From: a virus
Strand: one strand, 5' to 3'
Length of the DNA stretch: 64,000 nucleotides
IMG/VR virus record: IMGVR_UViG_3300027996_000023
Span: 1 to 64,000 of that record
How positions within the stretch are numbered: the first letter of the stretch is position 1; every line of letters begins with the position of its first letter. The position numbers were made by a program, and so were the translations under genes. The notes beneath the pieces are model-generated. The model was not told where the DNA came from. It saw only the letters and a list, made by a program, of their open reading frames with translations, and ran no database searches. This document shows, piece by piece, positions 19,863 through 48,634 of the stretch.

Positions 19863-19894
19863 CAAAAATAAACAATTTTTTCAACTTTATCAAA
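19863..19894 (-). promoter_or_regulatory. Bacteroidetes-type promoter for scaffold and capsid
   Basis: Minus strand: TTTG, 20 bp spacer, TATTTTTG, matching the Bacteroidetes -33 TTTG / -7 TAnnTTTG consensus. It overlaps the last codons of the portal gene and would start RNA close to the scaffold ATG at 19845. Confidence 0.7.
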
Positions 19895-22292
19895 CTTGGC
19901 CTTGATTCAATTCTGGCCCTTGCCCATCTCCTTGCGCTGATTCTAGTTGCTTGTCTAAGCTTTTATGCATCACTTCGGAACCAAATTTCCTTGTATCCTT
20001 GTCCTCGTCCCTCTTAGAATCAAACTGCGCTTGAAATTCTATTGTCTTTCTATCCTCTTCTCCTTGTGCTGCAATTTTCATTAAATCTCCTTCCATCTTA
20101 GCTTGCATGGTAAGCCTTCTTTCTTGCTCTGCCACCTTAGCTGCTTCTGCGTTTGACTTGCCCTGCACTTCAAATTCTTCCATTTTTCGTTTATGCATAA
20201 GAGCTGCATGGGATTTTGTAGCTTTAGATAGATACAGTTGAGCTTTCTTAATATCTCCATTTTTGACCATACTCCACAGCATAAAGAAGTCATCTACCCC
20301 TATTTGTTGCTGTGCCTTCATTTCGTGCAAGTTCTGCATTAATAACTGCTTATCTTCTTGCGTGGGCACTAAAGTCATCATTACGCCATAGTCGTACATG
20401 TACAACTCTTTTGATAAACTGATGGATTTTATAACTGAATCTCCTATTGGGATAAAATTTATATCTATATCTCCACCCATAAGAGCTGTCTGCCACTTCA
20501 ACGTGGTGTATCTTGCCCAATTCTTAGTCAACCCTTCTAACAGGTTAAAGTGTGGCCTAAGTGCATTATTTGTAGCAGCAGATAGGTTTTGCATTACCCC
20601 AACAAGCATATCTCCCTTTTGAGATGTACCATCCGCAACTTCGTTTATACCTGTTACTTGACGTATAGAATCTATATTTGTTGCAATTTCAGTCAAAAAT
20701 ATTTGTAAATCTTCTTGTACACCAGAGGGCATAAATGAAAAAGGAGGCCTATTGCTTCCGCCTTCGTCACCTTCGTATTCTGATTTAGACTCCACAATAA
20801 GAACACCTGACTTGCTGTACAATGTAAGCAGATCAAGCATCGAATACACATCTCCACCTATATTAACGGAATCTCTAAGTAGCGATTTATCAACTACCAT
20901 TCTTGGCCCAGGAGCCATCTTGGATAAAGCATTTCTCTTCTTTAAAGTAGCCAGTTGTATATCGTCAACAAAGGCTATGCATCTTTCAACTAAACTCTTA
21001 GATTTGTTAGAGTAAACCTGTATAGGCAATAGAGCTTGCTTTATGCCATCTTTATTAGCTTTGGCAATAGCGTATTCCACATCATTATCGTACACTTCGT
21101 CACACCCAATAACCCAGCAACATCGATAACATTTTTCTATTATATTGTCATCCATTTTTTTGCCTCGCTTTTTCATTCTTGAACTAAGCTTGGCATTCCT
21201 TTTTACCTTATCATAAATATAGTTGCCTTCGTCCTCCCTAACTCCAACCAAATATCTTTCTACGTCCTTAGCTATAAAGTAACATTCTAGTACATCCACC
21301 CTAAAATCATTGTAGCTCAAGTCTGAACTATTAAAGTCGTAATCGCCTCTATAAGACTTTTCCCACTCTATCCCAGAAGGCGTAGAAAACTCATTGCTGT
21401 TCCCATTCCTTCCTTTGTACTTTTTTGCAATTTTCATCAATTGACCTTCAGTAAGATCTGACTCCATGCGAAGCTGGCCAATAGTTACACTTCTGACTTC
21501 TCCAGCATAAGTGCTGTCACGATGGTCTGCGTATTTGGATTTTTGTATGATTAATTTCTCAGGGTCTACATAATCAGATATAACCTTATGTGTTTTTTTG
21601 TGTACTATAGTTTTTATAGCACATATCCCTAAATCCACAATATCCTCTATGTTTTTTTCTTTTATAGTTTCCCAATGGCTTTCGTATTGAGTACTTTGCA
21701 AAGCGTCTGCCATTGCCATCTCCCACTCTAGCCTTACGCCTCCCATTTTTATCCAAACATCTACCTCTTCGGCTGTTTTTATGTACTGGGGTAGTTCAAC
21801 ATCTGGAGGACCAATCCCTGTTTTTTCCATAAACTCTTTAATCATTGGGCTGGTCAAGAGTCTCATTTTATTGGATTGATTCAGTCTTGCCTTGCTGGAT
21901 AGCTCGTCTAACGCTTGGGTAGTTATCTCAAAGCCCATAGATAGCATCTTCCCTTTTACTATGTCTCTAAACTTAGGTAGTATCTGTACTATCTCTTGAT
22001 TTAGATTCAAATAACCCTCATTAGTAAATTCGTCACAGTCATCTAACAACTCTAAGTATCTACGCTTGCCCTGCAAGCCAAGGGCATACAACCTAAGCTC
22101 TGAAAAGCTTTTACCGCTACCTCCGCTATACCCACCATACTCAGTTGTTGATCCACTATTATTGTATTGGGACCAGATGTATTTGCACATCTTGAGATAG
22201 AAAGGATCGTCCTTCACGCCATAGCGATTTGGCATGTTATACTTTTTCTTCTTATCCTTAAAGTCCTTTTCTCCTAAATATTTTTCAGCCAT
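19890..22292 (-). CDS. Portal protein
   Basis: 800 aa, the length typical of crAss-like portals and much longer than most portals. N-terminus is basic and helical (MAEKYLGEKDFKDKKKKYNM). The middle contains a long alternating helix/strand region, and the C-terminal 110 residues are a charged coiled coil (AAKVAEQERRLTMQAKMEGD) ending ELNQGQV. It lies between terminase and scaffold, as expected for the dodecameric ring through which DNA is packaged. Its start overlaps the stop of the small membrane protein by 8 bp. Confidence 0.85.
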   Translation of the reverse strand: MAEKYLGEKDFKDKKKKYNMPNRYGVKDDPFYLKMCKYIWSQYNNSGSTTEYGGYSGGSGKSFSELRLYALGLQGKRRYLELLDDCDEFTNEGYLNLNQEIVQILPKFRDIVKGKMLSMGFEITTQALDELSSKARLNQSNKMRLLTSPMIKEFMEKTGIGPPDVELPQYIKTAEEVDVWIKMGGVRLEWEMAMADALQSTQYESHWETIKEKNIEDIVDLGICAIKTIVHKKTHKVISDYVDPEKLIIQKSKYADHRDSTYAGEVRSVTIGQLRMESDLTEGQLMKIAKKYKGRNGNSNEFSTPSGIEWEKSYRGDYDFNSSDLSYNDFRVDVLECYFIAKDVERYLVGVREDEGNYIYDKVKRNAKLSSRMKKRGKKMDDNIIEKCYRCCWVIGCDEVYDNDVEYAIAKANKDGIKQALLPIQVYSNKSKSLVERCIAFVDDIQLATLKKRNALSKMAPGPRMVVDKSLLRDSVNIGGDVYSMLDLLTLYSKSGVLIVESKSEYEGDEGGSNRPPFSFMPSGVQEDLQIFLTEIATNIDSIRQVTGINEVADGTSQKGDMLVGVMQNLSAATNNALRPHFNLLEGLTKNWARYTTLKWQTALMGGDIDINFIPIGDSVIKSISLSKELYMYDYGVMMTLVPTQEDKQLLMQNLHEMKAQQQIGVDDFFMLWSMVKNGDIKKAQLYLSKATKSHAALMHKRKMEEFEVQGKSNAEAAKVAEQERRLTMQAKMEGDLMKIAAQGEEDRKTIEFQAQFDSKRDEDKDTRKFGSEVMHKSLDKQLESAQGDGQGPELNQGQV

Positions 22293-22620
22293 AATAATAT
22301 AACTCGAATAAAAAAGATACAGATGTAGCTACCTGCAAATTACTAACCCACCAAAACATTGGCCAATGCCATTTTTTAGCCGCAAAAACCATGACGCATT
22401 TTACCCATGTCCCACAAAATACATAAAAACAGCCAATTACACAAGACATTACAACCGCTAATGCCATTGGGCTGTAAAAACTAAATACACCGCAGCACAT
22501 TAAAACATATAATATTGCACTTCTAAAGTCCTCTTTAAAGGAGTATTCACGATCATCCCTGGGGCTGTCATACCAATAAGAATGGACAATAAAAACCACT
22601 AACCATAGTACAATTATCAT
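22285..22620 (-). CDS. Small multi-pass membrane protein, 111 aa
   Basis: Hydrophobic segments at residues 1-17, about 34-62 and about 64-81 plus an aromatic-rich C-terminal one suggest three or four membrane passes (MIIVLWLVVFIVHSYW, MALAVVMSCVIGCFYVFCG). It overlaps the terminase stop by 4 bp (ATGA) and the portal start by 8 bp. A membrane protein between terminase and portal is unusual. It could be an inner-membrane factor for infection or a holin-like protein. Function unknown. Confidence 0.75.
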   Translation of the reverse strand: MIIVLWLVVFIVHSYWYDSPRDDREYSFKEDFRSAILYVLMCCGVFSFYSPMALAVVMSCVIGCFYVFCGTWVKCVMVFAAKKWHWPMFWWVSNLQVATSVSFLFELYYYG

Positions 22621-24764
22621 ATCCTGTGAACTCTTTTTTTAACTGGCAATCCTTTAGACCAATCATCCTCTTTTTTCTTCTTACCCAACTCTTTGTGGTC
22701 CATAGCGGCCAACAGAGCCATGCCACATGCTACTGTTAAATCTCGCTTAGTCCTATTTTTTACATTATACTCTCTAAAGTCATTTAGAATCCTTGTATGG
22801 TGATAAGTCTGCCACCTAAAGTACACATGTTTTTTTAATTCCTGTGTATATAAGTGAATAACTCCCTTACTTGCCTTTATTCCTTTTTCCTTTTTAAATT
22901 TCTTATTCTTATTCCCTGCAGTTTCTACTACCGTTTGCCTTGGCCTTCTCTTAATGTAATGCTTAAAGTCTTTATCTTCAAACCAAGGAATTATTGAACC
23001 TCTATCTTTTTCGGGAAATATTGCTACTCCATAGTAAATCGCACCCATCAACATCTGCTCGAAGATCTCATAAGGATTGTCTGGCCGATCCAAGTAATCC
23101 GCTATAAACCTATCTGTCTGCATCTTCCAAACATCCCACTCTTGTACTTCCCCTTCTTCGTTCCTGTCTAAATTACAGTCCACCATCTCATTAAACCTAC
23201 GATATATAGCAGCTCCTCCATCCGAGCCACCTCCATCTTCTGCCATGTGGTCAACAGGATCCACCCCCATTGTGTACAAAGCATCATTGCCAGGGTGAAT
23301 ACCATTTTCCCTTACGAAGCAATTGTTAGGCTTCTCTGGGTGATGTGACACTCTCCACTTACCTTTGGCATTTGGCATCCACTTAACTTTTGACCCAAAT
23401 CCATCAACCCAAGCAAAGTCTCCTTTTATCTCTAACGGCTTAACCTCACTTCCTGTTGCAGTTAATGGCTGATCATTTCCAGCCAACCCGTTATCTATTT
23501 GTGATATCCTCTTGTCTAAATACACAGGAAAGAGCACACATTCACTATGAGGAGGACGAAATACATCTTCAATAGTAATAGGGTGCTTTCTGTTAAAATC
23601 TGCCAATCCATCCCAATCTGTGTCTGATTCGTAGCTTTCTCTTTCGTTCTTTACGAACTCAATACACTCTTCCTTCAAGTGAAAACCCCATTCGTCTACT
23701 CCGTAAGCATAAACACAATTCCTAAAATACCTATAAAGCCCACTCTTTGTTCTATTGTTTTTATTTCTTTGCTTTGGGTTAGACTCGTCAAAGGTCTTTT
23801 TAATATGCTTCATTGTTTCCGCACTCTCAAAATCCTCTACGGTAGTTGTCCACAAAGCTTTGCCTATGATATCCTTACCATTCTTTAGTGCCAAAGCTGG
23901 CTTCACCCTTCGCCACTGGGCATTTACATCAAAGGCCTTTATCTTACCCGGCTCATCTAAATGCCACAACCCTAACCTATCCCCATCATAAGCACCTAAT
24001 ACACTGGCCTTAAAATCTATCTTAGATTTAATAGGATCATACTTGTACGTCAATTCCCCTTGCCCCGTACCTTTTTTCTTCTTTTTCTCCAATTGCTTGA
24101 GGGAGAATATCTTTCTAGGATACTTGAACTCTAGCACTTCTCCTGGGTCTGAGGAGCTTGGTAGTATAGGACGAAAGAAGAATGCCATCTCTGAATGCGC
24201 AGCAACAATCCTTTTAAAATTAACCCCTGCATCCGTATCGGTAACATTTTGCATTCCACACCAAGTATATTTTGTGCCAGATGCTAATTCGTACATTAGA
24301 TGCAGTGCTTTCTCTGTATCCCCCATACGTCTACCCTTAATGTCTACCTCTCCACAGCAATTAGGATCTCTCCAGCAATGCTCCCAAACCAAATAGAACA
24401 GCATGTCTCCCTCTCTAAACTCTGGATACATACCTGCCTCTACCCACCAAAAATTCAAGTAGTGCCAAAACTTTCCTGTAATATAGTAAGGCTGTCCCTT
24501 TATGTACCACCATTCCCCATGCTGCCTCTTGTGGTACATCTTTTCCACAAACTTATCCATCTCCTTTTCTGGCCACCTTTCAAGATCATCTGGAATAACC
24601 TCTTTTCTAAACTTCTGGTCCTTTATCTTCTTGCCATAGTTTATTATCTTCTTCTTGTCTGGCATCTTAGGCAATACCACAGGGACCTCAAAGCCATCTA
24701 TTTCCATAGTGCCGTAAGGTTTGTCCCACCTCCATTCGGATGTATATAAGTATTCTTTTGCCAT
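22617..24764 (-). CDS. terL: Terminase large subunit
   Basis: 715 aa ATPase-nuclease that packages DNA into the prohead. Near residue 142 is a deviant Walker A (KGRRMGDTEKA), in which the usual GK(T/S) is GDT. The Walker B region follows near residue 260 (DGDRLGLWHLDE), with the acidic pair DE. The RNase H-like nuclease domain begins near residue 495 with MGVDPVDH followed by GGSDGGAAIYRR. Length and the surrounding portal gene support the call. The missing Walker A lysine is noteworthy; a basic residue just before (K/R) may take over. Confidence 0.9.
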   Translation of the reverse strand: MAKEYLYTSEWRWDKPYGTMEIDGFEVPVVLPKMPDKKKIINYGKKIKDQKFRKEVIPDDLERWPEKEMDKFVEKMYHKRQHGEWWYIKGQPYYITGKFWHYLNFWWVEAGMYPEFREGDMLFYLVWEHCWRDPNCCGEVDIKGRRMGDTEKALHLMYELASGTKYTWCGMQNVTDTDAGVNFKRIVAAHSEMAFFFRPILPSSSDPGEVLEFKYPRKIFSLKQLEKKKKKGTGQGELTYKYDPIKSKIDFKASVLGAYDGDRLGLWHLDEPGKIKAFDVNAQWRRVKPALALKNGKDIIGKALWTTTVEDFESAETMKHIKKTFDESNPKQRNKNNRTKSGLYRYFRNCVYAYGVDEWGFHLKEECIEFVKNERESYESDTDWDGLADFNRKHPITIEDVFRPPHSECVLFPVYLDKRISQIDNGLAGNDQPLTATGSEVKPLEIKGDFAWVDGFGSKVKWMPNAKGKWRVSHHPEKPNNCFVRENGIHPGNDALYTMGVDPVDHMAEDGGGSDGGAAIYRRFNEMVDCNLDRNEEGEVQEWDVWKMQTDRFIADYLDRPDNPYEIFEQMLMGAIYYGVAIFPEKDRGSIIPWFEDKDFKHYIKRRPRQTVVETAGNKNKKFKKEKGIKASKGVIHLYTQELKKHVYFRWQTYHHTRILNDFREYNVKNRTKRDLTVACGMALLAAMDHKELGKKKKEDDWSKGLPVKKRVHRI

Positions 24765-26154: not shown

Positions 26155-26494
26155 CTTCTATAGCTTTAACCAACCCAGCATCTAAGCTATTCCCCTCCCT
26201 TACGGAAAAGAATACTTTAAGATCTGAATGATGACAAACAATTAACTTCCTTCCATCTCCTGTGTCAAACTCAAACTTCTGAGTGACTGGCTTGAGAACA
26301 ACTACCCCTACTTCTATCTGGTCATCCCAAGGAATAAACTCCCTCTCTTGACTTGTAGGCTTACTAAAAGACACGATTTTGGCCAACTGAGGCTGGCTAT
26401 GTCTTACTTCCCCAAACATTTGTGGCCCCTTGTGCCTTATTGTAACATCCTCTAACAAGACATGACCCACCCTAGGTTTTATTTCTTTATCCAT
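26138..26494 (-). CDS. GroES-like co-chaperonin, single domain
   Basis: 118 aa with a GroES-type order: an early strand (VGHVLLEDVTIRHKG, the mobile-loop region being RHKGPQMFGEVRHSQ), a middle AKIVSFSKP, the IEVGVVVLKPV strand and a closing HHSDLKVFF strand. Overlaps the GroEL-like stop by one base (TAATG) and overlaps the double-GroES gene by 17 bp, so all three are coupled. Less certain than the neighbour because the canonical VGD is VGV here. Confidence 0.6.
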   Translation of the reverse strand: MDKEIKPRVGHVLLEDVTIRHKGPQMFGEVRHSQPQLAKIVSFSKPTSQEREFIPWDDQIEVGVVVLKPVTQKFEFDTGDGRKLIVCHHSDLKVFFSVREGNSLDAGLVKAIEDGQLR

Positions 26495-33739: not shown

Positions 33740-33961
33740 ATGCCATTTGAAAATTTAATGAATTCACTCAGTAAAGAACAAAAAACTGAGGTTCTTGAAA
33801 ATGCCGCCCTATATGAATATATATTTTTTGATATTAGCGTTGGTGCTGCTATTACATTAGAGTTTTTAGACGACTTTCCAGAATTTGAGGAAAACGGGTA
33901 TAGCTGTGTTTTGTATGCAGAAGAGTGTTTCAATTTTCTATACGCTGAGAAGTTTATCTAA
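33740..33961 (+). CDS. Hypothetical acidic protein, 73 aa
   Basis: First gene of the rightward module. MPFENLMNSLSKEQKTEVLE... helical, strongly acidic (EFLDDFPEFEENG). Small acidic early phage proteins often act as DNA mimics or inhibitors of host enzymes; there is no direct sign of that here. Followed within 10 bp by the first tRNA-like element. Confidence 0.7.
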   Translation: MPFENLMNSLSKEQKTEVLENAALYEYIFFDISVGAAITLEFLDDFPEFEENGYSCVLYAEECFNFLYAEKFI

Positions 33962-33968
33962 AAAAGGT

Positions 33969-34031
33969 TAGTTGTAAGAAAAAAGGTTCTGAGATTCTTT
34001 CTTGTGGGTTCGACTCCCACTACAGCTACTA
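33969..34031 (+). ncRNA. tRNA-like element, copy 1
   Basis: 7-bp acceptor stem AGTTGTA/TACAGCT (one G-U), T-arm GTGGG-TTCGACT-CCCAC with canonical T-loop, then A and CTA. Only 27 nt lie between acceptor and T-arm, too few for normal D and anticodon arms; they can form one A/U-rich hairpin. It starts 8 bp after the stop at 33961. Confidence 0.75.
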
Positions 34032-34065
34032 AAAATATTTTACCACAATTTTAAATAAGCTAACT

Positions 34066-34335
34066 ATGAAAATTACAATGCACAGCACGAAATTAGAAAA
34101 AAATCCAAACACAAAAACAACGTATCTAAAAGGTGAAACCATAAAAAAGGAAATCACAAAAGAACAGTATCACAATATTACTAATGATAGCACCCTCAAA
34201 GCATTTCGAAGGTTTGGGGGTTTTGAATATGCCGTAAGAAGTTACACTTGTAACGGATACAACGTTACAAGATTAACCTCCACAAGTCCAGACAAGCAAA
34301 CAAAGCACATAAGAGAATTTTCGTTCGAGTGCTAA
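34066..34335 (+). CDS. Hypothetical basic protein, 89 aa
   Basis: MKITMHSTKLEKNPNTKTTY... Lys/Thr-rich, ending KHIREFSFEC. The end alternates polar and apolar residues, suggesting a small beta fold. Start preceded by GCTAACT-ATG. Flanked by tRNA-like copies 1 and 2. No family recognised. Confidence 0.68.
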   Translation: MKITMHSTKLEKNPNTKTTYLKGETIKKEITKEQYHNITNDSTLKAFRRFGGFEYAVRSYTCNGYNVTRLTSTSPDKQTKHIREFSFEC

Positions 34336-34342
34336 AAAAGAT

Positions 34343-34406
34343 TAGTTGTAAGAAAAAAAGGTTCTGAGATTTTATCTTGTGGGTTCGACTCCCACTACAG
34401 CTACTA
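34343..34406 (+). ncRNA. tRNA-like element, copy 2
   Basis: Same design as copy 1: AGTTGTA/TACAGCT acceptor, identical T-arm, CTA end, 28 nt between. Begins directly after the stop of the 89-aa gene. Confidence 0.75.
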
Positions 34407-34443
34407 AAAATATTTTTCTACCACTTTAAAAAATCTAACTGTT

Positions 34444-34716
34444 ATGATTTTTCCCTCTGAAATGTCAATTTATTTTGACAAGTATAATGCTAAAACGGCT
34501 GAGTTCTTTGCACTTCCTTTTTACTGCAAAAATGAGTATTATTTTACTTTGGATTTTTGGTTGGGTAACGACCAAGAACAAATCGAAGGAATAATATATA
34601 AGAAAAAAGGTTTTTTAATTATAGAACCTAATAATGATATTTTATATTTTTCAGAACCTCAGCAAGCAAGCATTTTAGATTTTATTAAATCATCTTTCCT
34701 AAAATCTAAAAAATGA
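34444..34716 (+). CDS. Hypothetical protein, 90 aa
   Basis: MIFPSEMSIYFDKYNAKTAE..., rich in aromatic residues with alternating strands (EYYFTLDFWLGNDQEQIEG, GFLIIEPNNDILYF). Start context CTAACTGTT-ATG. Overlaps the next gene by 4 bp (ATGA), so this block of four genes (34444-35537) is a coupled run without tRNA-like separators inside it. Confidence 0.68.
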   Translation: MIFPSEMSIYFDKYNAKTAEFFALPFYCKNEYYFTLDFWLGNDQEQIEGIIYKKKGFLIIEPNNDILYFSEPQQASILDFIKSSFLKSKK

Positions 34717-35096
34717 AAAAATTTACAATTCGTAGACATTTGAGCAAAGGTCAATATTTTGGTTTCTTTCAAGTCAGAGGATATATAACAGACAGTAAAC
34801 AAGGAGAAGTCCTTTTTTATGTCAATCCAGAAACTCAAAACCTTGTTATGCAAGATTGTATTTTACATAACAAGGTTAACCAAAGTATAAAAATTTTTGA
34901 AGGCCAAAATAAAAGGCCTTGTGCCTACATTATTTGCGGCAAAGTTGAAGTAAAAGACGCCACAAGGGTTGAGGGTATAAAAGTATCTTATAACCCGAAA
35001 AAAAGTCCAAATTGGACTATAAATAACAAGCCGTCAAATTTTGCGAAGGTCAATAAAATTGAAACATTTGGGACTAAACTTTTTGGGCTCAGTTAA
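34713..35096 (+). CDS. Hypothetical basic protein, 127 aa
   Basis: MKKFTIRRHLSKGQYFGFFQ... beta-rich and basic. Contains two cysteines and ends NKIETFGTKLFGLS. Could be nucleic-acid binding by charge. Coupled to the previous gene. Unknown function. Confidence 0.66.
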   Translation: MKKFTIRRHLSKGQYFGFFQVRGYITDSKQGEVLFYVNPETQNLVMQDCILHNKVNQSIKIFEGQNKRPCAYIICGKVEVKDATRVEGIKVSYNPKKSPNWTINNKPSNFAKVNKIETFGTKLFGLS

Positions 35097-35109
35097 AAAA
35101 AATCTAAAA

Positions 35110-35334
35110 ATGTACATTAACAAAAAATTTGAAGATAGAGATTATATATTTTGTCTTGTCTCTATAGCCTTATACAATTTGCCTAATAATGATAGCTCAG
35201 ATTTTGAGCTATACAAACAAGCAAAAAAAATAGCTGAGCAGCTATTTAACGACTACAGAAAAGACAAAATAAATACAATAGGGTTCGATGATTCGGACAC
35301 AATTTTAATTTATACAAAAAATTACAAAAAATGA
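35110..35334 (+). CDS. Hypothetical protein, 74 aa
   Basis: Start taken at 35110 (MYINKKFEDRDYIFCLVSIA), because the longer frame runs into the previous gene. Helical, mixed charge; ends with Lys/Tyr. Overlaps the next gene (ATGA). No family recognised. Confidence 0.64.
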   Translation: MYINKKFEDRDYIFCLVSIALYNLPNNDSSDFELYKQAKKIAEQLFNDYRKDKINTIGFDDSDTILIYTKNYKK

Positions 35335-35537
35335 CAAACTTAGAAAAAATTGAGTCTCTATTCATAGGAGATTCTATAATAGACCTAAATGGCAAACAGA
35401 TTGAAAAAATGAAGGAAAATGTATATTATATACATTGTACTTCGAGCGGTTGGAAAACTGCCACAGTTACAAAAACGGAGTTGATTGAAGTTTTTGTGAC
35501 AGGAAAAAAAGACTTGCTGAGTCTTATTTGGGAGTGA
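35331..35537 (+). CDS. Hypothetical protein, 68 aa
   Basis: MTNLEKIESLFIGDSIIDLN... with the strand YYIHCTSSGWKTATVTKTEL. Compact alpha/beta pattern. Last of the coupled run before tRNA-like copy 3. Unknown function. Confidence 0.65.
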   Translation: MTNLEKIESLFIGDSIIDLNGKQIEKMKENVYYIHCTSSGWKTATVTKTELIEVFVTGKKDLLSLIWE

Positions 35538-35569
35538 TTTTTTTCAACTCCATAGAAAAAGCTGTAAGA

Positions 35570-35621
35570 AAAAAGGTTCTGAGATTTTATCTTGTGGGTT
35601 CGACTCCCACTACGGCTGCTA
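35570..35621 (+). ncRNA. tRNA-like element, copy 3
   Basis: AGCTGTA/TACGGCT acceptor (one U-G pair), T-arm identical to the others, then G and CTA. The base changes against copies 1 and 2 keep pairing intact. Confidence 0.75.
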
Positions 35622-35653
35622 AAAATATTCTACCACAATTTTAAATAACTATT

Positions 35654-35803
35654 ATGTATACAACCAGAATAATAATAGGCTTAATTCTTTGCCTATTATT
35701 GGATCGATCCAACAGAAAAGAGAATAGGTATAGCATAACACTTTGTATCCTAATTTATGGCAGTGTTACACTAATTTTATCACATTTATACACAACTATA
35801 TAA
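35654..35803 (+). CDS. Small two-pass membrane protein, 49 aa
   Basis: MYTTRIIIGLILCLLLDRSN then a charged turn (RKENR) and a second hydrophobic helix (ITLCILIYGSVTLILSH). Start has the ATT-ATG context seen at the other genes following a tRNA-like element, and the stop lies one base before the next ATG. Topology hairpin in the inner membrane is likely; role unknown. Confidence 0.62.
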   Translation: MYTTRIIIGLILCLLLDRSNRKENRYSITLCILIYGSVTLILSHLYTTI

Positions 35804-35804
35804 A

Positions 35805-36023
35805 ATGATATTACCAGCAAAAAAGTTTGACGAAAGTCAAGAGGAAAATTGGCAAGAATATAAGGCCAAATGTAAAAAAAATAATTGCGAGCCTCAAAAT
35901 AGAAATAATTTTAATCAATTTATTTTGTGTGAAAAAAAGTACGGTTTTGTGCTTTGCGGCACATATTGGAAGTGGGCAAAGCGAAAAAAGGATTTAGAAC
36001 CGTATAACCCTAATTTTCCCTAA
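35805..36023 (+). CDS. Hypothetical protein, 72 aa
   Basis: MILPAKKFDESQEENWQEYK... Lys-rich with four cysteines (CKKNNCEPQ, FILCEKKYGFVLCG) that could bind zinc. Ends KDLEPYNPNFP. Followed by tRNA-like copy 4. No family recognised. Confidence 0.66.
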   Translation: MILPAKKFDESQEENWQEYKAKCKKNNCEPQNRNNFNQFILCEKKYGFVLCGTYWKWAKRKKDLEPYNPNFP

Positions 36024-36027
36024 AGGT

Positions 36028-36090
36028 TAGCTGTAAGAAAAAAGGTTCTGAGATTCTTTCTTGTGGGTTCGACTCCCACTACAGCTACTA
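36028..36090 (+). ncRNA. tRNA-like element, copy 4
   Basis: Perfect 8-bp outer stem TAGCTGTA/TACAGCTA, standard T-arm, CTA end; starts 5 bp after the stop at 36023. Confidence 0.78.
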
Positions 36091-36127
36091 AAAATATTTT
36101 TCTACCACAATTTTAAATAAGCTAACT

Positions 36128-36487
36128 ATGAAAAAATTGCTATTAATTACTGTTCTAATAATTTGCTTTTTGGGGCTCAGCGAAAAAAGCTATAGCCAAA
36201 GTACAAAAACATATTCTTTTACTCTTGCTTTGGGGCAAGCTTCTGAGTTAAATCAACTACCTCAAAATTTGACTGTAAAGAAAATAAAAGGGTCCAGAAT
36301 TATAGTGGAAATTAAGGTTGTTTCTAAAAATGCAAGTTGCAAAGTTATAGATGCGCTGCAAAAGTCGTTTAGATACGCTATAGACCTAAACGACTTTTCT
36401 TTTCCAAACATGGAAAAAAGGGTTTTTATAAATGGAGTAGAAATTTTAGAGCAAATTTTTATAACCGTTTACTATCCTGTAAACTAA
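36128..36487 (+). CDS. Secreted protein, 119 aa
   Basis: Signal peptide MKKLLLITVLIICFLGLSEK with SYSQ (likely cleavage near residue 24), then a beta-rich mature part (TYSFTLALGQASELNQLP) of about 95 residues. Exported to the periplasm or surface of the host; could take part in superinfection exclusion or envelope change (inference). Start context GCTAACT-ATG. Confidence 0.72.
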   Translation: MKKLLLITVLIICFLGLSEKSYSQSTKTYSFTLALGQASELNQLPQNLTVKKIKGSRIIVEIKVVSKNASCKVIDALQKSFRYAIDLNDFSFPNMEKRVFINGVEILEQIFITVYYPVN

Positions 36488-36494
36488 AAAAGGT

Positions 36495-36557
36495 TAGCTG
36501 TAAGAAAAAAGGTTCTGAGATTTTATCTTGTGGGTTCGACTCCCACTACGGCTACTA
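36495..36557 (+). ncRNA. tRNA-like element, copy 5
   Basis: AGCTGTA/TACGGCT acceptor with an extra outer T-A pair, standard T-arm, CTA end. Starts 8 bp after the secreted-protein stop. Confidence 0.75.
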
Positions 36558-36589
36558 AAAATATTCTACCACAATTTTAAAAAACTATT

Positions 36590-36883
36590 ATGAAAAAGTT
36601 GAATGAGTTAAAAAATTATAGAAAGATAGATGCTAGATTCGTCCACCCTAACAACACCAGGGGCGCAAGAATATGTATAGAAGAAAAGAAAAGGTATAAC
36701 GACTGTACTGTTAAGCGAAAATATTTTTCATGTGGTGATAAGCCACTACAAGAACAAGCTTTTGACATTCTTACTAAAAACGGGTTTAATGTTATCTGCT
36801 TAACGTCAAACGCTGAAAGTTACGGGTTCTTATGTGATAATTGGGCAGAAAATTACATAGAAATTAGTGACATAAAAGCCTAA
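36590..36883 (+). CDS. Hypothetical protein, 97 aa
   Basis: MKKLNELKNYRKIDARFVHP... alpha/beta with cysteines in CTVKRKYFSCGDK and VICLTSNAESYGFLC. Ends NYIEISDIKA. No family recognised. Flanked by tRNA-like copies 5 and 6. Confidence 0.68.
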   Translation: MKKLNELKNYRKIDARFVHPNNTRGARICIEEKKRYNDCTVKRKYFSCGDKPLQEQAFDILTKNGFNVICLTSNAESYGFLCDNWAENYIEISDIKA

Positions 36884-36889
36884 AAAGGT

Positions 36890-36952
36890 TAGCTGTAAGA
36901 AAAAAGGTTCTGAGATTTTATCTTGTGGGTTCGACTCCCACTACGGCTGCTA
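36890..36952 (+). ncRNA. tRNA-like element, copy 6
   Basis: AGCTGTA/TACGGCT acceptor, standard T-arm, G then CTA. Starts 7 bp after the previous stop; CTACCACA box follows at 36961. Confidence 0.75.
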
Positions 36953-36984
36953 AAAATATTCTACCACAATTTTAAAAAACTATT

Positions 36985-37269
36985 ATGAAAAATATTAATC
37001 TATTGACTATTCAATCTGCTATCGTTATTGATAGCAGCAAAAATACAAACAACACAACTATATTTACATACGTGTACGACCTATCTATAGGATTTAAAAA
37101 CGGCATATCTTCTAGTGCTAGGATAGGTAAGTTTGTTCACGTAGGAAGCTATGACAGCCTACTACAGGAACAGAAGGAAAAATCCTTAGCCTACTTAGGG
37201 CTCAGTAAAAATAATGTAGCTACGATTAAATATAGCTACGATTTTAAAAACAAAAAATATTTTAAATAA
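36985..37269 (+). CDS. Hypothetical protein, 94 aa
   Basis: MKNINLLTIQSAIVIDSSKN... beta-rich, Ser/Tyr/Lys-rich, with KFVHVGSYDSLLQEQKEKSL as a central helix. Ends YDFKNKKYFK. Unknown function. The next gene follows after 15 bp without a separator. Confidence 0.66.
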   Translation: MKNINLLTIQSAIVIDSSKNTNNTTIFTYVYDLSIGFKNGISSSARIGKFVHVGSYDSLLQEQKEKSLAYLGLSKNNVATIKYSYDFKNKKYFK

Positions 37270-42569: not shown

Positions 42570-42956
42570 ATGGCTGAGTGCGATATTGAAAAAAATAAGC
42601 TTATCTTTAAGAGTGCGATAGGCAAAATAATTTCTGTTCCATTCTCTGCTAATACTTCTGAGGATTTCTTTCTCCAGGTATTGTCGCATATTATGGTAAC
42701 AAAATTTAATTACTTTATAAAAAAAGTAAATGCAGATCAGTTTAATTGTCTGCGGTTTTTTAATCCCTACAAAGGTTCGCATGGATGCTTGCAAGATAAG
42801 TGGGGGCACAAGTGCCAGATGCATATTAGGCCACGAAATTTTGAGGATTTGCTTGTGTTGATGCATAGAATAGGGTTCGATGTTAAGTTGATTTTTGATG
42901 GCCAAGAATATGAAAAAGATATCTTTCATAAAGTTTGGTCAATAACAGCTCTATGA
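42570..42956 (+). CDS. Hypothetical protein, 128 aa
   Basis: Start taken at 42570 (MAECDIEKNKLIFKSAIGKI) to avoid overlap; an earlier ATG at 42498 is possible and would add 24 residues. Contains HGCLQDKWGHKCQMHIRPRN, a Cys/His-rich stretch. Stop overlaps the next gene's start. Unknown function. Confidence 0.6.
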   Translation: MAECDIEKNKLIFKSAIGKIISVPFSANTSEDFFLQVLSHIMVTKFNYFIKKVNADQFNCLRFFNPYKGSHGCLQDKWGHKCQMHIRPRNFEDLLVLMHRIGFDVKLIFDGQEYEKDIFHKVWSITAL

Positions 42957-43780
42957 TGGATATTTCAGATTTAAAAATAAGGATATTAATATCTTTTAGT
43001 GGTGGAGAGAGCTCTGCCTTTATGCTTATTCAGCTATGGAATAGGTATAAAAACAGGCTTGATGTGGAAATATTAGTATGCTTTGCTAATACTGGGGATG
43101 AAGAAGAAGAAACCTTGATTTTTGTAGAAAAAGTCTCCAAGGTTTATTCAATTCCCGTTACATGGTTAGAGGCTTATGTTTCTCCTGTAATGGGTTTAGG
43201 GGTAATGCCTGTAATTGTAGACTTCGACATTGCATCAAGGGATGGTGCTCCCCTGTTAGATCAATCTGAAAAAGTAGGGGCTTGTGGAATATCCACTCCC
43301 CACTGTACTAGGGATTTAAAAATAAGATGCATACAAAAATATGCTAAGGCTTATTTTGAAAAACAACCCTTTTATACTGCTATGGGGATGCGATTTGACG
43401 AGCAAATAAGGATCGACTGGGATAGGGCTAATCGAGAAAGGTTTATATATCCTCTTGTAAATACCTTTAGGGTGTACAAAGCAGATGTTAGAACCTACTG
43501 GAGAAAGCATAAAGAAAAATATGGATGGAGGCTTAATTTGCAGCCACATCAAGGAAATTGTGTGTTGTGCCATAAAAAAGAAGAGCGGAAGCTTGTAAGG
43601 CTTATTCGAGAAAAGCCTTGTAGGGCTATATTTAGAATGACCCTTACTCTTGTGTCAGCTACAGATGAATATGATATGTATAGAGGGCACTGTGACATTT
43701 GGGATTTATTAGAAAAAGCGAAGTCGGATACTCCGGAGGATTTATTCTCATCTTTTGGTGGCTCTTGTTTTTGCGGTTAA
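42953..43780 (+). CDS. PP-loop enzyme, PAPS reductase-like
   Basis: 275 aa from ATG at 42953 (MMDISDLKIR). PP-loop ISFSGGESSAFML near residue 13, the typical LVCFANTGDEEEETLIFVEKV strand, a cysteine in CGISTPHCTRDLK, and C-terminal cysteines NCVLCHKKEE and GGSCFCG that could hold iron-sulfur or zinc. The family (PAPS reductase / adenine nucleotide alpha hydrolase) activates a substrate with ATP; members act in sulfur metabolism, tRNA thiolation and DNA modification. Here the next gene is a second PP-loop enzyme, so a two-enzyme pathway is likely. Substrate unknown. Confidence 0.82.
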   Translation: MMDISDLKIRILISFSGGESSAFMLIQLWNRYKNRLDVEILVCFANTGDEEEETLIFVEKVSKVYSIPVTWLEAYVSPVMGLGVMPVIVDFDIASRDGAPLLDQSEKVGACGISTPHCTRDLKIRCIQKYAKAYFEKQPFYTAMGMRFDEQIRIDWDRANRERFIYPLVNTFRVYKADVRTYWRKHKEKYGWRLNLQPHQGNCVLCHKKEERKLVRLIREKPCRAIFRMTLTLVSATDEYDMYRGHCDIWDLLEKAKSDTPEDLFSSFGGSCFCG

Positions 43781-43789
43781 ATAAAAAAA

Positions 43790-44704
43790 ATGCAATTATC
43801 TATACTTGAATGCTTGGAAGATTCTTGGAGGTATCAAGACAAGAATGTTATGATAGGACTAAGCGGAGGGATTAATTCTGCTGCTGTTCTGGTGTATCTT
43901 GTAAATTACGTACCCAAGGATGAGTGGCCTGACGTTTTGCATTTGTACTATGCTCATTTTGAAGAGCATAGTCCAGATACTATGGATTTTGTATTGGCCT
44001 TGGTAAAGTACGCTAAAGATCACTTTAAAAAGGTTGTCTTTGAGATGACTGAAAATAGTGTGAACAGATACTTTATTGATGCTGGTATGATTCCACATCC
44101 TACTCGGTCTACCTGTACTGGAATATTGAAAATCTTTCCTATGGCTGAGTATATGCATGACAATAAGATCGATGTAGATTTAGTGGGCTATGTTAGGGAG
44201 GATAAGAGTCGCATTAAGCGGCAGAAAAAATACATTGAGTCCAAGAAGAAAAACAGGACTGGCAAAGGGAAGGCTATGAAGAAAAAAGAGCACCCTATAG
44301 CCCATCTTAGCGATGAAGATTGTTTTTCCTTGGTTGAGAAGCATCTTGGTCCTGGTGTGGTGCCGGATATATATAAGATAAAATGGAATGACAAAAGGAT
44401 TATTCCATTCTTGAAGTGCCATAAAGAATTTATACCCCAAGACCAATACAAAGTTGTAATGGCTTATGCTAGGGCTGGGTACAATATAAAAAAACACTCT
44501 TACAGGGTGTTTGACCATAATAATTGCTTGCCTTGTAAGAACATGCAAAGCTGGCAGCTATACATGGTAAAGCTTTTCTACCCTAAGAAATTTGAGAGGG
44601 CTATAGAAACTGCCGAACAGTTAGGGCAGTTCTGGGGGAGAAATGCTGACGAAATGAGTAGAGCTGGACAGGACGCTTCTTGTTCTTTTTGCCAGATGGA
44701 TTAA
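43790..44704 (+). CDS. Second PP-loop ATPase with C-terminal cysteines
   Basis: 304 aa. PP-loop VMIGLSGGINSAAVLVYL near residue 21, then a long region with a basic insertion (RQKKYIESKKKNRTGKGKAM, residues about 145-165). C-terminal cysteine pairs are CLPCKNMQSWQLYM near residue 252 and CSFCQMD at the end, as in thiolation or deazapurine-type enzymes. It follows its sister gene after 10 bp. The shared layout (PP-loop plus late CxxC) suggests joint work on a nucleotide or RNA/DNA base; no single family can be assigned by eye. Confidence 0.75.
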   Translation: MQLSILECLEDSWRYQDKNVMIGLSGGINSAAVLVYLVNYVPKDEWPDVLHLYYAHFEEHSPDTMDFVLALVKYAKDHFKKVVFEMTENSVNRYFIDAGMIPHPTRSTCTGILKIFPMAEYMHDNKIDVDLVGYVREDKSRIKRQKKYIESKKKNRTGKGKAMKKKEHPIAHLSDEDCFSLVEKHLGPGVVPDIYKIKWNDKRIIPFLKCHKEFIPQDQYKVVMAYARAGYNIKKHSYRVFDHNNCLPCKNMQSWQLYMVKLFYPKKFERAIETAEQLGQFWGRNADEMSRAGQDASCSFCQMD

Positions 44705-44777: not shown

Positions 44778-45074
44778 ATGACTACGTACAACATAAAACT
44801 GGATGGGGATACCCTAACAATTGGGTTTAACCCACAAAAACCAGCTACTAACGACACCATCGTAAAAGATGCTCTGTCTCAAATGTCTAATGTAGACTGT
44901 AGCGGATTGCCACTTTTGAAAATTTCTGGCCCTGCATCCTTGCCTGTTTCTATGGTTATTGCGCATAGCGTATGCCATATAGTGGGGGCAGTAGCTTGCT
45001 ACGACCCTAAGCTTGGGAAGTTTGTGGTAGCCATTAGCCATAACCCTGATTACAAAGTAGGGGATTTGGTGTAA
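44778..45074 (+). CDS. csx3: Csx3/Crn3-like ring nuclease (candidate anti-CRISPR)
   Basis: 98 aa, the size of stand-alone Csx3. The second half, SGPASLPVSMVIAHSVCHIV then GAVACYDPKLGKFVVAISHN and YKVGDLV, follows the Csx3 pattern: a G-x-A/x-LPxxMxxAHxxxH helix, a YDPxLG loop and a final V-x-SHxPxYxVGD. Csx3 (Crn3) is known to degrade cyclic tetra-adenylate, the alarm signal of type III CRISPR. The aspartate of YDPKLG and the histidine of the AHxxxH helix are present; the usual Arg two after the Asp is Lys. I saw no CRISPR genes here, so a phage copy would serve as an anti-CRISPR (inference). Has the ATAGTT-ATG context. Confidence 0.82.
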   Translation: MTTYNIKLDGDTLTIGFNPQKPATNDTIVKDALSQMSNVDCSGLPLLKISGPASLPVSMVIAHSVCHIVGAVACYDPKLGKFVVAISHNPDYKVGDLV

Positions 45075-45135: not shown

Positions 45136-45465
45136 ATGAATATCAAAATGTTTAAAAACGGTTGGAGAGAATACAATAAAATAAAGGAGGATAAAGACAT
45201 GACTCCCCCTACTGATGTTTTAGTTATGTCAGATGGGCTTTTTATTACCTCTGAGGACAAAGAGGCAGTAAAAGAATACATTAACAAACTTCAAGCAAAG
45301 TACGAATGCTTTGCATCATCTCCTATTGCTGAAGAATATGCATGGTACCAGTCACTTCTTAGAGAGCGCAGCGCAGAAGGCGCATCGTATGAGTCCTTGG
45401 CATCTATTAATGAACAGATTAGAAAGGTGCAGCAAGAAGCGGAAAAATTAGGGATAAAGCTGTGA
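45136..45465 (+). CDS. Hypothetical protein, 109 aa
   Basis: MNIKMFKNGWREYNKIKEDK... with a central PTDVLVMSDGLFITSEDKE strand-helix and a C-terminal helix (SINEQIRKVQQEAEKLGIKL). Stop TGA overlaps the next gene's GTG start by 3-4 bp. Unknown; position between a ring nuclease and a lysin. Confidence 0.64.
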   Translation: MNIKMFKNGWREYNKIKEDKDMTPPTDVLVMSDGLFITSEDKEAVKEYINKLQAKYECFASSPIAEEYAWYQSLLRERSAEGASYESLASINEQIRKVQQEAEKLGIKL

Positions 45466-45905
45466 ATATCCTTAAAATATTAACTGTGCTCATGCTCCTA
45501 CCCTTTTACTCCATAGGGCAGAAGTATGAGCATGTTAAAAAATATATTGATAGGGTTATGCCCTATGCTGTTCTTGTGCAGCAAAAATACAATGTTCCGA
45601 TTTGCATTACTATTGGGGTGGCTGCTATGGAATCTGGATGGGGAAGATCTAATGTATCCAAGGTTCATTGCAACCATTTAGGACTAAAAGGGTCAAAAGG
45701 TTACATGAGCTTTGGCTCGGATAAGGAAGGATTTTTGTATTTTGGTAGACTACTTGGTAATAGTAGAAGATACAAAGGGCTACAGTACATAAGGGACTAC
45801 AAGACATATTGTATCGAATTGTCTTGTCTTGGATATAACAAACGGGAGGAATATGCTCCTGGCTTAATTCAACTGATCGACCAGTTTAACCTCAACGAAT
45901 TATGA
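45462..45905 (+). CDS. Secreted glucosaminidase-type lysin
   Basis: 147 aa, GTG start coupled to the previous stop. Signal peptide MNILKILTVLMLLPFYSIGQ, then a glucosaminidase (PF01832-like) domain: YNVPICITIGVAAMESGWGR with the catalytic Glu in AMESGWG, KVHCNHLGLKG, and EGFLYFGRLL. It would cut peptidoglycan glycan strands after Sec export, without needing a holin. The genome has a second hydrolase, an amidase, elsewhere (52049-52822). Confidence 0.85.
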   Translation: MNILKILTVLMLLPFYSIGQKYEHVKKYIDRVMPYAVLVQQKYNVPICITIGVAAMESGWGRSNVSKVHCNHLGLKGSKGYMSFGSDKEGFLYFGRLLGNSRRYKGLQYIRDYKTYCIELSCLGYNKREEYAPGLIQLIDQFNLNEL

Positions 45906-47041
45906 AAAAAATAGTTCTCAGCTTATTTAACGGGATGAATTGCATAGGATGCGCTCTTGATAGAATTGGCATTGATGCAATTATTTATGGTAGCGAGATA
46001 GATAAGTTTGCTACCCAAGTTTCAGATGCCCTGTTTCCTGATACTGTAAATTTGGGGGATGTTAGATCGGTTATACCTGCTATGGAGTTGGAGTTGTTGT
46101 CTGGGAATATAGACACTATAGACATTATTGCTGCTGGTTCTCCCTGCCAAGGGTTTTCTTTTGCTGGCAAGCAATTGAATTTTGAGGACGAGAGAAGTAT
46201 CTTATTTTTTGAGTTTATAAAGATACTTGAGTGGTGCCGGGTTAAAGTGAACCCTAATGTCAAGTTTCTTTTGGAAAACGTTTCCATGAAAAAAGAGCAC
46301 CAAGACATTATTACTCGCTTGGTAGGAATCGAACCTATTGTGATAAACTCTAACCTTGTTAGTGCTCAAAACCGCAAGAGGTTGTACTGGACTAACATAG
46401 GTGCCACCTCAGCTAATTTGTTTGGAGTTTTAGAACCAGGTATAAGACAACCTAAGGATCTGGGAATAACTCTCCAAGACATTCTCCAAAGCAATGTGGA
46501 TAAAAAGTATTATTTAAGCCTAAAAGGTATTGACTTCATAACTAAACCTATGAGGTTGGCTAAAAAATACACTGCCATTAATGGGAAAAAGAGTTTGACC
46601 TTAACAGCTAATGGTCAGAAAAACTGGACAGGAACTTTTATAAGTGACAGGAAAGGTAATGTAAAAAACAACCAAAACAAGGCTTCGTGCCTAACGGTTG
46701 GGGGCAATGGCAATGGCAATCATAGTGACATGGATGTTATTGTTTTTATTCAACAAAAAGCCAGAGGGTTTAACAAAGGAGGAGAGCATTCAGAAAAAGC
46801 TCCTACGCTAACCTCAAACTCTTGGCAGCAAAACAATCATCTACATTTCGCTGACACAATCCGAAGGTTGACTCCAAGGGAATGTGGAAGGCTGCAAACT
46901 TTTACTGAAGAAGAGCTGGATGTTATACTCAATTGTGGAGTAAGCGATAGTCAGCTATATAAAATGTTCGGAAACGGATGGACTGTTTCTGTTATTTCTT
47001 GGATATTAACACACTTGCTATGGACAACAGAAAGAAAGTAA
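45902..47041 (+). CDS. dcm: DNA cytosine-C5 methyltransferase
   Basis: 379 aa with the ordered C5-MTase motifs: I, LSLFNGMNCIGCAL at the N-terminus; IV, AAGSPCQGFSFAG with the catalytic Cys of PCQ; VI, FLLENVS; VIII, AQNRKRLYWTNIG; X, GNGWTVSVISWIL. A target-recognition region lies between VIII and IX (about residues 165-310). Motif I with 'LFNG/LFDG' recalls phage and DNMT3-like enzymes. Presumably protects phage DNA from restriction; the target site cannot be read from sequence. Overlaps the lysin by 4 bp. Confidence 0.93.
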   Translation: MKKIVLSLFNGMNCIGCALDRIGIDAIIYGSEIDKFATQVSDALFPDTVNLGDVRSVIPAMELELLSGNIDTIDIIAAGSPCQGFSFAGKQLNFEDERSILFFEFIKILEWCRVKVNPNVKFLLENVSMKKEHQDIITRLVGIEPIVINSNLVSAQNRKRLYWTNIGATSANLFGVLEPGIRQPKDLGITLQDILQSNVDKKYYLSLKGIDFITKPMRLAKKYTAINGKKSLTLTANGQKNWTGTFISDRKGNVKNNQNKASCLTVGGNGNGNHSDMDVIVFIQQKARGFNKGGEHSEKAPTLTSNSWQQNNHLHFADTIRRLTPRECGRLQTFTEEELDVILNCGVSDSQLYKMFGNGWTVSVISWILTHLLWTTERK

Positions 47042-47325: not shown

Positions 47326-47719
47326 ATCGCTATCTCTTATGAGTCAATTTCAGTTTAGTCCCGATGGTAACGTAGAAGTTATGATTAATCTGGGTATAAA
47401 TGGCTCGTACATTAAACTTATGTTTTACTTCAGAAAGGACGAGGAGGGTTTTCTTCTCTGCGACTACTACAAAGAATTTCTCCCTGGAGAACTAGGAAGA
47501 AAAGTTCAAACTATAATTAAGGTGGATGTTCGCAAGCTTGTAGATAATAGCAGCATAGGTGTTGCCATTGACGAGGCTTGGATGGGGCACTATAGAGATG
47601 AAGTCCTAGCCAAGCAGATAGCTGCAAAAGAAGAAGATCTGGCAAGGCTCTGGGGTCTTAGAAAGCAGATGACTCCTTCGTATAAAATTATTAAACAAGC
47701 CCCAACGGCCGAAAAATAA
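47312..47719 (+). CDS. Hypothetical protein, 135 aa, with shared C-terminal tag
   Basis: MKETESLSLMSQFQFSPDGN... beta-rich first half, helical second half (DEVLAKQIAAKEEDLARLWG). Ends KQAPTAEK, a peptide repeated at the end of the next three proteins. Body not recognised. Confidence 0.68.
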   Translation: MKETESLSLMSQFQFSPDGNVEVMINLGINGSYIKLMFYFRKDEEGFLLCDYYKEFLPGELGRKVQTIIKVDVRKLVDNSSIGVAIDEAWMGHYRDEVLAKQIAAKEEDLARLWGLRKQMTPSYKIIKQAPTAEK

Positions 47720-47725
47720 ATAAGG

Positions 47726-48208
47726 ATGAAATCAAAAATTTTAGAACTCCTAGCCACTAAAGAGGGCAAAAATATTGTCCTAGCTTTGGAGTTGGCCAAG
47801 GGGCAAAAGATTGAGTTAGGGGCATTGGATTTATCTTTTGCAAACCTAAAAGGGGCTAACCTAAAAGGGGCTAACCTTATCGGGGCTAACCTTAGAGGTG
47901 CTGACCTAGAAGGGGCTAACCTTATCGGGGCTGACCTAGAAGGGGCTGACCTTATCGGGGCTGACCTTAGAGGTGCTGAACTTAGAGGGGCTAACCTAGT
48001 AGGGGCTAACCTTAGAGGGGCTAACCTAGTAGGGGCTAACCTTAGAGGGGCTAACCTTAGAGGGGCTAACCTATTCTTAGCTGACCTCAAAGGGGCTGAC
48101 CTAGAAGGGGCTAACCTTGAAGGAGCTAACCTTAAAGGCGCTGATCTTAGAGGTACAATTTTAGAAGGTTTAAAAATAAACCAAGCCCCAACGGGCGAAA
48201 AAAAATAA
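47726..48208 (+). CDS. Pentapeptide-repeat protein
   Basis: 160 aa. Residues about 30-145 are A(N/D)L-x-G pentapeptides (GANLKGANLIGANLRGADLE...), which fold as a right-handed beta helix. The DNA is a nearly perfect tandem repeat of 15 bp (GGGGCTAACCTTAGA-like), a sign of recent expansion. Some family members mimic DNA and protect or inhibit gyrase, so a role against DNA-directed host factors is possible. Carries the shared tail APTGEKK. Confidence 0.9.
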   Translation: MKSKILELLATKEGKNIVLALELAKGQKIELGALDLSFANLKGANLKGANLIGANLRGADLEGANLIGADLEGADLIGADLRGAELRGANLVGANLRGANLVGANLRGANLRGANLFLADLKGADLEGANLEGANLKGADLRGTILEGLKINQAPTGEKK

Positions 48209-48211
48209 ATC

Positions 48212-48397
48212 ATGAATCCAAAAAATATGACTAGGGTAATTGTTCAGATAGGGCAATTTGTAGATTTTGCTTTCTACAAAGACGGTTTATACAAAATAGG
48301 GAAAGACTACTATAAACCTAGTCAAATAAATAGTTGGGCTAGTATTAGCCAACTAAAACAATTTTTAACCCATGCCCCAACGGCCGAAAAAAAATAA
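48212..48397 (+). CDS. Hypothetical protein, 61 aa, with shared C-terminal tag
   Basis: MNPKNMTRVIVQIGQFVDFA..., small beta-rich fold (YKIGKDYYKPSQINSWASIS) ending HAPTAEKK. Starts 4 bp after the pentapeptide gene. Body unknown. Confidence 0.66.
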   Translation: MNPKNMTRVIVQIGQFVDFAFYKDGLYKIGKDYYKPSQINSWASISQLKQFLTHAPTAEKK

Positions 48398-48400
48398 GAG

Positions 48401-48634
48401 ATGGATTTTAAAAAACTAGAGATTAGCCCCAACAAAATTAGTTGGGAAACCAACAGCAATTTTATTGTGTATCAAACAGAAGTTTTAAATCACGGGGAAT
48501 ATGTATCCGTACTAAAAAAAACCCTTATACATGGGGAAATCAAAAGTGTTGATTTAGTCCATATTCCAAATGCACTACTAGACAAAATAAAATTTTTAAA
48601 CCAAGCCCCAACGGGCGAAAAAAATAATTATTAG
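48401..48634 (+). CDS. Hypothetical protein, 77 aa, with shared C-terminal tag
   Basis: MDFKKLEISPNKISWETNSN... beta-rich protein ending NQAPTGEKNNY; the last residues differ because the stop was shifted. Followed by degenerate copies of the pentapeptide coding sequence and of the tail element. Confidence 0.64.
   Translation: MDFKKLEISPNKISWETNSNFIVYQTEVLNHGEYVSVLKKTLIHGEIKSVDLVHIPNALLDKIKFLNQAPTGEKNNY

Follow-up and report, generated by a model that had tools for sequence, protein, structure and literature searches.

The gene described here lies in a window of 64,000 nucleotides, the whole stretch of DNA analyzed, which forms part of a 70,909-base metagenomic virus contig classed as linear (IMG/VR record IMGVR_UViG_3300027996_000023). 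It resembles csx3/crn3, and its neighbors are listed in Table 1. A preliminary description of this DNA had placed it between two PP-loop enzymes and a methyltransferase; the PP-loop pair is directly upstream, but two genes intervene before the methyltransferase downstream. The hairpin/terminator signals said to bracket csx3 were not recovered: folding of the two flanks gave z-scores of −0.77 and −0.16, no better than shuffled sequences, and neither intergenic gap flanking the gene contains a + strand terminator-like site. An upstream motif common to csx3 and the next gene was considered and discarded, with 0 matches in the window. Use of the PP-loop gene as a route to relatives led to one related virus, which lacks csx3. 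As a separate observation, the PADLOC SspD model matches two window ORFs, presumably the tandem PP-loop proteins (42935-44704), which might mean DNA sulfur modification.

Table 1. Features of the csx3 locus, proposed functional positions of its product and phage hallmark genes (window coordinates)
Feature	Coordinates	Strand	Basis or proposed counterpart
csx3/crn3-like gene (P0001)	44778..45074	+	complete ORF, ATG start, 98 aa; PF09620, PADLOC Csx3, AlphaFold2 model against 6yud (Z 11.8)
S50-G51-P52-A53-S54-L55	44925..44942	+	putative counterpart of AfCsx3 S44-I49 loop contacting cA4 (PMC7371418, available text); R46 replaced by P52
H63 + H67	44964..44978	+	putative counterparts of AfCsx3 H57/H60; one-residue insertion relative to AfCsx3
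D76-P77-K78	45003..45011	+	putative counterpart of catalytic D69-P70-R71, Arg replaced by Lys; invariant in 31 alignment rows
H88	45039..45041	+	putative counterpart of H80, cA4 contact from H60 face; invariant in 31 alignment rows
PP-loop/PAPS-reductase-like protein	42935..43780	+	phrog_424, 6.9e-32
Second PP-loop/PAPS-reductase-like protein	43790..44704	+	phrog_424, PF01507
109-aa protein	45136..45465	+	no family found
Endolysin-like protein (147 aa)	45462..45905	+	phrog_18032
C5-cytosine DNA methyltransferase	45902..47041	+	phrog_116
Terminase large subunit	22617..24764	-	phrog_6681
Portal protein	19890..22292	-	phrog_6547

PHROGs families on the record include portal, terminase, virion proteins, GroEL, primase, DnaB, replication initiation proteins and endolysins. 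Since it encodes a terminase large subunit, the record is that of a tailed phage, and the claim that csx3 is phage-encoded is borne out by the terminase, portal and replication genes that share its contig. Among GenBank phages the terminase matched 87 records; 86 bear the names of Flavobacterium, Cellulophaga, Tenacibaculum or Maribacter phages and one is an unnamed member of the Caudoviricetes. The portal protein gave the same tally, and identity was about 24% for both proteins among the matches listed. A Bacteroidota host is therefore likely. Does the phage carry a CRISPR system of its own? Cas_csx3 is the sole Cas or CARF family among the 22 Pfam families found in the 94 window ORFs, a scan that stops 6.9 kb short of the end of the record, and PADLOC gave no other Cas gene among the 25 of 59 families listed. 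Within the window, the Pfam scan thus offers no indication that the phage bears a CRISPR system, and csx3 appears to stand outside any CRISPR locus there.

In bacteria, the enzyme Csx3 breaks down the molecule by which type III CRISPR immunity signals alarm. The sequence stretches quoted in the preliminary description are all present in the 98-residue protein encoded at the locus. Profile searches, proposed there as a check, gave a divided answer. The protein scores 33.2 bits against Pfam PF09620 (Cas_csx3; curated cut-off 21, E 4.7e-8, residues 45-98) and matches the PADLOC models (Csx3-AAA, 80.6 bits over residues 1-98; Csx3, 59.6 bits over residues 1-90; 2.7e-23), but its 33.0 bits against the NCBIfam equivalog TIGR02579 fall under the cut-off of 55.4. 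We therefore file it as a divergent Csx3-family protein and not as a TIGR02579 equivalog. By tblastn, 14 of 72,556 plasmid records contain a match, 13 of them covering at least 80% of the protein; the best is the Csx3 of a CRISPR locus in Nostoc (52.9% identity, 100% of the protein, E 3e-26). This Nostoc protein, the nearest Csx3 with a type III association, reaches only 23.4 bits in PF09620, so the clade to which the window protein belongs diverges from the models. A search for the Csx3 family matched the record at the gene itself and none of 14 control genomes. The Pfam, PADLOC and full-length tblastn matches thus mark a full-length Csx3-family protein and no chance motif, and it is near certain that such a protein is encoded on the phage. 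PHROGs holds no family for it, and the DUF1874 domain of AcrIII-1 is absent, as Pfam at E values up to 10 lists Cas_csx3 alone above its cut-off. This csx3 is known from one sequence only.

Structure prediction, the second check proposed, recovered the Csx3 fold. An AlphaFold2 model built on an alignment of 31 sequences (A3) reached a pLDDT of 86.9 and a pTM of 0.78. Foldseek against the PDB returned 13 chains at E ≤ 0.001, all of them Archaeoglobus fulgidus Csx3/Crn3 (AfCsx3), with the cA4-bound structure 6yud as best match; in VIA-align the model superimposes on 6yud_D with Z 11.8 and 1.7 Å over 86 residues. The next fold match is the cA4-binding Cat1 (Z 9.7), and the remainder lie at or below 5.9. 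In the BFVD fold library, the model had no match at E ≤ 0.001, a result that applies to this library only.

The available text of the AfCsx3 study gives H57, H60, D69, R71 and H80, as well as S44, G45, R46 and I49, as functional residues, and terms Arg71 absolutely conserved in Csx3 (PMC7371418). When roles are transferred through aligned positions, the window protein has counterparts of both histidines, D69 and H80, namely H63, H67, D76 and H88. Each of the two histidines is present in 90% or more of the 31 alignment rows, and their pairing with H57 and H60 requires a one-residue gap; an ungapped alignment to AfCsx3 would place C66 at the H60 position. At the position of R71, the protein has K78. 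Since this lysine is invariant in the 31 rows, the whole cyanobacterial-type clade, type III-associated members included, departs from the Arg71 rule. Both histidines are lost in some relatives, the phage records L064-L066, and histidine loss is also seen in a Synechocystis protein (L007), so that not every member of the clade need be an active enzyme.

The window protein is 46-57% identical to the 31 aligned sequences and shares the DPKLG and SHNP/THNP motifs with cyanobacterial-type Csx3/Csx3-AAA proteins of Nostoc and Synechocystis (PADLOC PDLC01045). It differs from them in context, since the five plasmid members viewed lie in CRISPR loci, and in form, as some bear a longer, fused C-terminal region and some lack the histidines. 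Seven cellular csx3 loci were viewed in all. The five plasmid loci adjoin Cas10, RAMP or other CRISPR-associated genes; the Nostoc csx3 C052 has no cas genes within the 6.3 kb viewed. The seventh, in Pyramidobacter (NZ_CP133039.1), is a canonical crn3 that sits amid repressor, Rha, integrase and DNA-polymerase genes and looks like part of a prophage. A phylum search around the Desantisbacteria relative reached four genomes, one with a match.

Csx3 is not a one-off in phages. We found it in 11 further IMG/VR records, or 12 including the window, all above the PF09620 cut-off and falling into two clades; this count is a lower bound, as the scans require an exact peptide pattern first and so miss members, and it represents fewer than 12 independent viruses, since L065 and L066 are identical in protein, as are L091 and L092, and L093 is frame-broken. 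A profile scan (alignment A2) gave three more records of the window's clade, L064-L066, and a second profile gave the same three. The Pyramidobacter crn3 protein found three virus records, and an alignment of its group (A7) found eight, five of them new. Scans with the single window protein and with a broad alignment (A1) found no relative in IMG/VR, no close viral relative of the window csx3 was found, and tblastn with three Csx3 queries against 50,697 GenBank phage records gave nothing convincing. Matches at E 4 under DNA polymerase genes in these phage records were taken as chance.

The records carrying these genes have phage content of their own, tallied by family scan of chosen ORFs and pooled per record group, with L066, L092 and L093 outside the scans. 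L072, L073 and L074 yielded terminase, portal, major head protein and integrase (39 ORFs); L064 and L065 a major head protein, baseplate, head protease and DarB-like antirestriction protein (34 ORFs); and L087, L090 and L091 a helicase, an SbcCD-like protein, endolysin, holin and resolvase (15 ORFs). In an alignment of seven virus records and Pyramidobacter (A8, eight rows), every row retains both histidines, the aspartate and the final histidine, and Arg71 is replaced by lysine in L091/L092. Profile comparison shows the two clades to be related (hhalign probability 97.7, E 1.5e-12). A tree, which omits L066 and two second-copy rows, separates them well without settling where in its own clade the window protein branches.

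Two variations on the family were seen among these records. In L064-L066, two divergently oriented Csx3-family genes lie side by side (7484-7897, −, and ~8004-8303, +); one keeps the counterparts of D76, K78 and H88 and lacks both histidines, and the other is a divergent Csx3-like gene (PF09620, ~24 bits). The second copy of L065 had no match among plasmid records. The idea that such a pair forms a split half-site was set aside, as the second gene aligns ambiguously and shows no residue that clearly corresponds to H60. In L091/L092 (5530-6261), Crn3 forms the C-terminal domain of a 243-residue phage fusion protein, whose N-terminal 150 residues match no Pfam family; a structure prediction for the fusion was unusable (pLDDT 37).

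How does this compare with known viral ring nucleases? A survey of 28,114 phage genomes reported AcrIII-1 in 36, Csx20 in four and Csx16 in two; its available text includes Crn3 among the profiles and does not name it among the phage finds (PMC12409355). Crn4 was reported in 11 of 28,137 phages (PMC12830947), in a paper whose available text likewise does not list Crn3 as a phage find, and a viral SAVED ring nuclease has been described (PMC12751052). We found no report of a viral Crn3 in the open-licence literature searched, and this is no proof of absence. The preliminary description took AcrIII-1 to be the known viral ring nuclease, and the window protein hence to be a different class. AcrIII-1 (DUF1874, the Crn2 counterpart and first viral ring nuclease) is indeed another family; it shares the proposed role, viral destruction of cA4, but differs in fold from Csx3 (PMC7371418, PMC12409355, available text). 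The viral SAVED nuclease (PDB 9r8s) likewise removes cA4, but by a SAVED domain that matches the window model weakly (Z 4.7), and phage Csx16, Csx20 and Crn4b are, as is proposed for the window protein, CRISPR ring nucleases in phage genomes, but of other families (PMC12751052, PMC12409355, PMC12830947, available text). As these are already described, a phage Crn3 would be one more class and not the second.

We think it probable that the window protein is a viral ring nuclease of the Crn3 type, a cA4-degrading anti-CRISPR. This reading is based on family, fold, conserved positions, phage context and recurrence in other phages; from these we infer metal-dependent cleavage, cA4 as substrate, an anti-CRISPR role and a Bacteroidota host with a cA4-signaling type III system. 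The protein resembles AfCsx3 (type III CRISPR; PDB 6yud, 3wzi) in fold, length and the positions of H/H/D/H, but is phage-borne and stands alone, with Lys for Arg71, Pro for Arg46 and the extra residue between the histidines. The missed TIGR02579 cut-off, the lysine, the histidine spacing and the loss of the histidines in some relatives are points against the reading.

By homology to AfCsx3, head-to-tail stacks of dimers would hold cyclic tetra-adenylate (cA4) between them. One dimer would grip the cA4 ring through its D76/K78 face, and its neighbor in the stack would contribute the H63/H67 site that completes a metal-dependent active site (Mn2+ in Csx3/Crn3), with this composite site cutting cA4 to linear di-adenylates. 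Made during infection, the protein could erase the alarm that host type III Cas10 raises on seeing phage RNA, and cA4-activated effectors would stay off. If true, the viral erasers of CRISPR second messengers would gain a class that depends on metal and has a composite active site built from two dimers. A phage-borne Crn3 makes viral use directly testable, and the candidates are small and expressible, natural variants without the catalytic histidines included.

What this analysis chiefly adds to the first reading is that Csx3 recurs across several groups of phages, which suggests that phages use it to silence the type III alarm. We are evenly divided on a broader proposal: that phages possess a family of Crn3-type viral ring nucleases not reported before, which they acquired on two or more occasions (as the cyanobacterial type and as the canonical type) and which has since diversified into intact enzymes (the window and the canonical phages), possible cA4 sponges without histidines (L064-L066, next to the other, divergent Csx3-like gene) and, in L091/L092, a form joined to a new N-terminal domain.

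It is also possible, if unlikely, that the window protein is itself a sponge, which binds and sequesters cA4, perhaps as filaments, with slow cleavage or none. In AfCsx3, the D69 face makes most of the cA4 contacts and the inactive H60A variant formed, in its authors' reading, fibers with cA4 (PMC7371418, available text), and the histidine-less proteins of L064-L066 are what a sponge could look like. The window protein, however, keeps both histidines together with D76 and H88. Quite unlikely, too, is another cyclic nucleotide as substrate, such as one made by CBASS, with an anti-CBASS or broad counter-defense role. The changes at Arg71 and R46 alter two cA4-contacting positions, and SAVED domains of CBASS follow Csx3 and Cat1 in the fold comparison, weakly (Z < 6). 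Against this, the cellular relatives viewed are mostly in type III CRISPR loci, and Crn1-3 are described as cA4-specific (PMC13148439, available text).

A third explanation, which we find very unlikely, is that csx3 is a picked-up cellular gene, either host-sparing, damping the type III alarm in a long-lived or carrier infection, or a passing moron with no selected role. Its GC content (0.438, against a mean of 0.376 and standard deviation of 0.040 for ORFs) weakly suggests import, and the failure to find a close viral relative would fit, but an unbroken reading frame and retained key positions speak against it, as does the recurrence of the family in other phage records. Misassembled bacterial DNA, with the csx3 stretch outside any phage genome, might be considered for a linear metagenomic contig, but is extremely improbable for a gene ~20 kb from the terminase and 8 kb from the primase, on one contig, with no adjoining type III locus.

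Apart from the Crn3-type reading, several other features of the window are worth recording. A phage GroEL-like chaperonin is encoded at 26494-28317, and the window ORFs also include a Cpn10-like protein. The crassvirus muzzle C-terminal domain (Pfam PF25729) in one ORF hints at a remote relationship with crAss-like phages. At 33961-36999, a 118-nt direct repeat, perhaps a repeated regulatory element, occurs six times between small + strand genes. Finally, at 47684-48622, four repeat copies span gene junctions and give successive proteins the C-terminal sequence (Q/H)APTxEK; the 17-nt core of this repeat occurs four times, against 0.02 expected.
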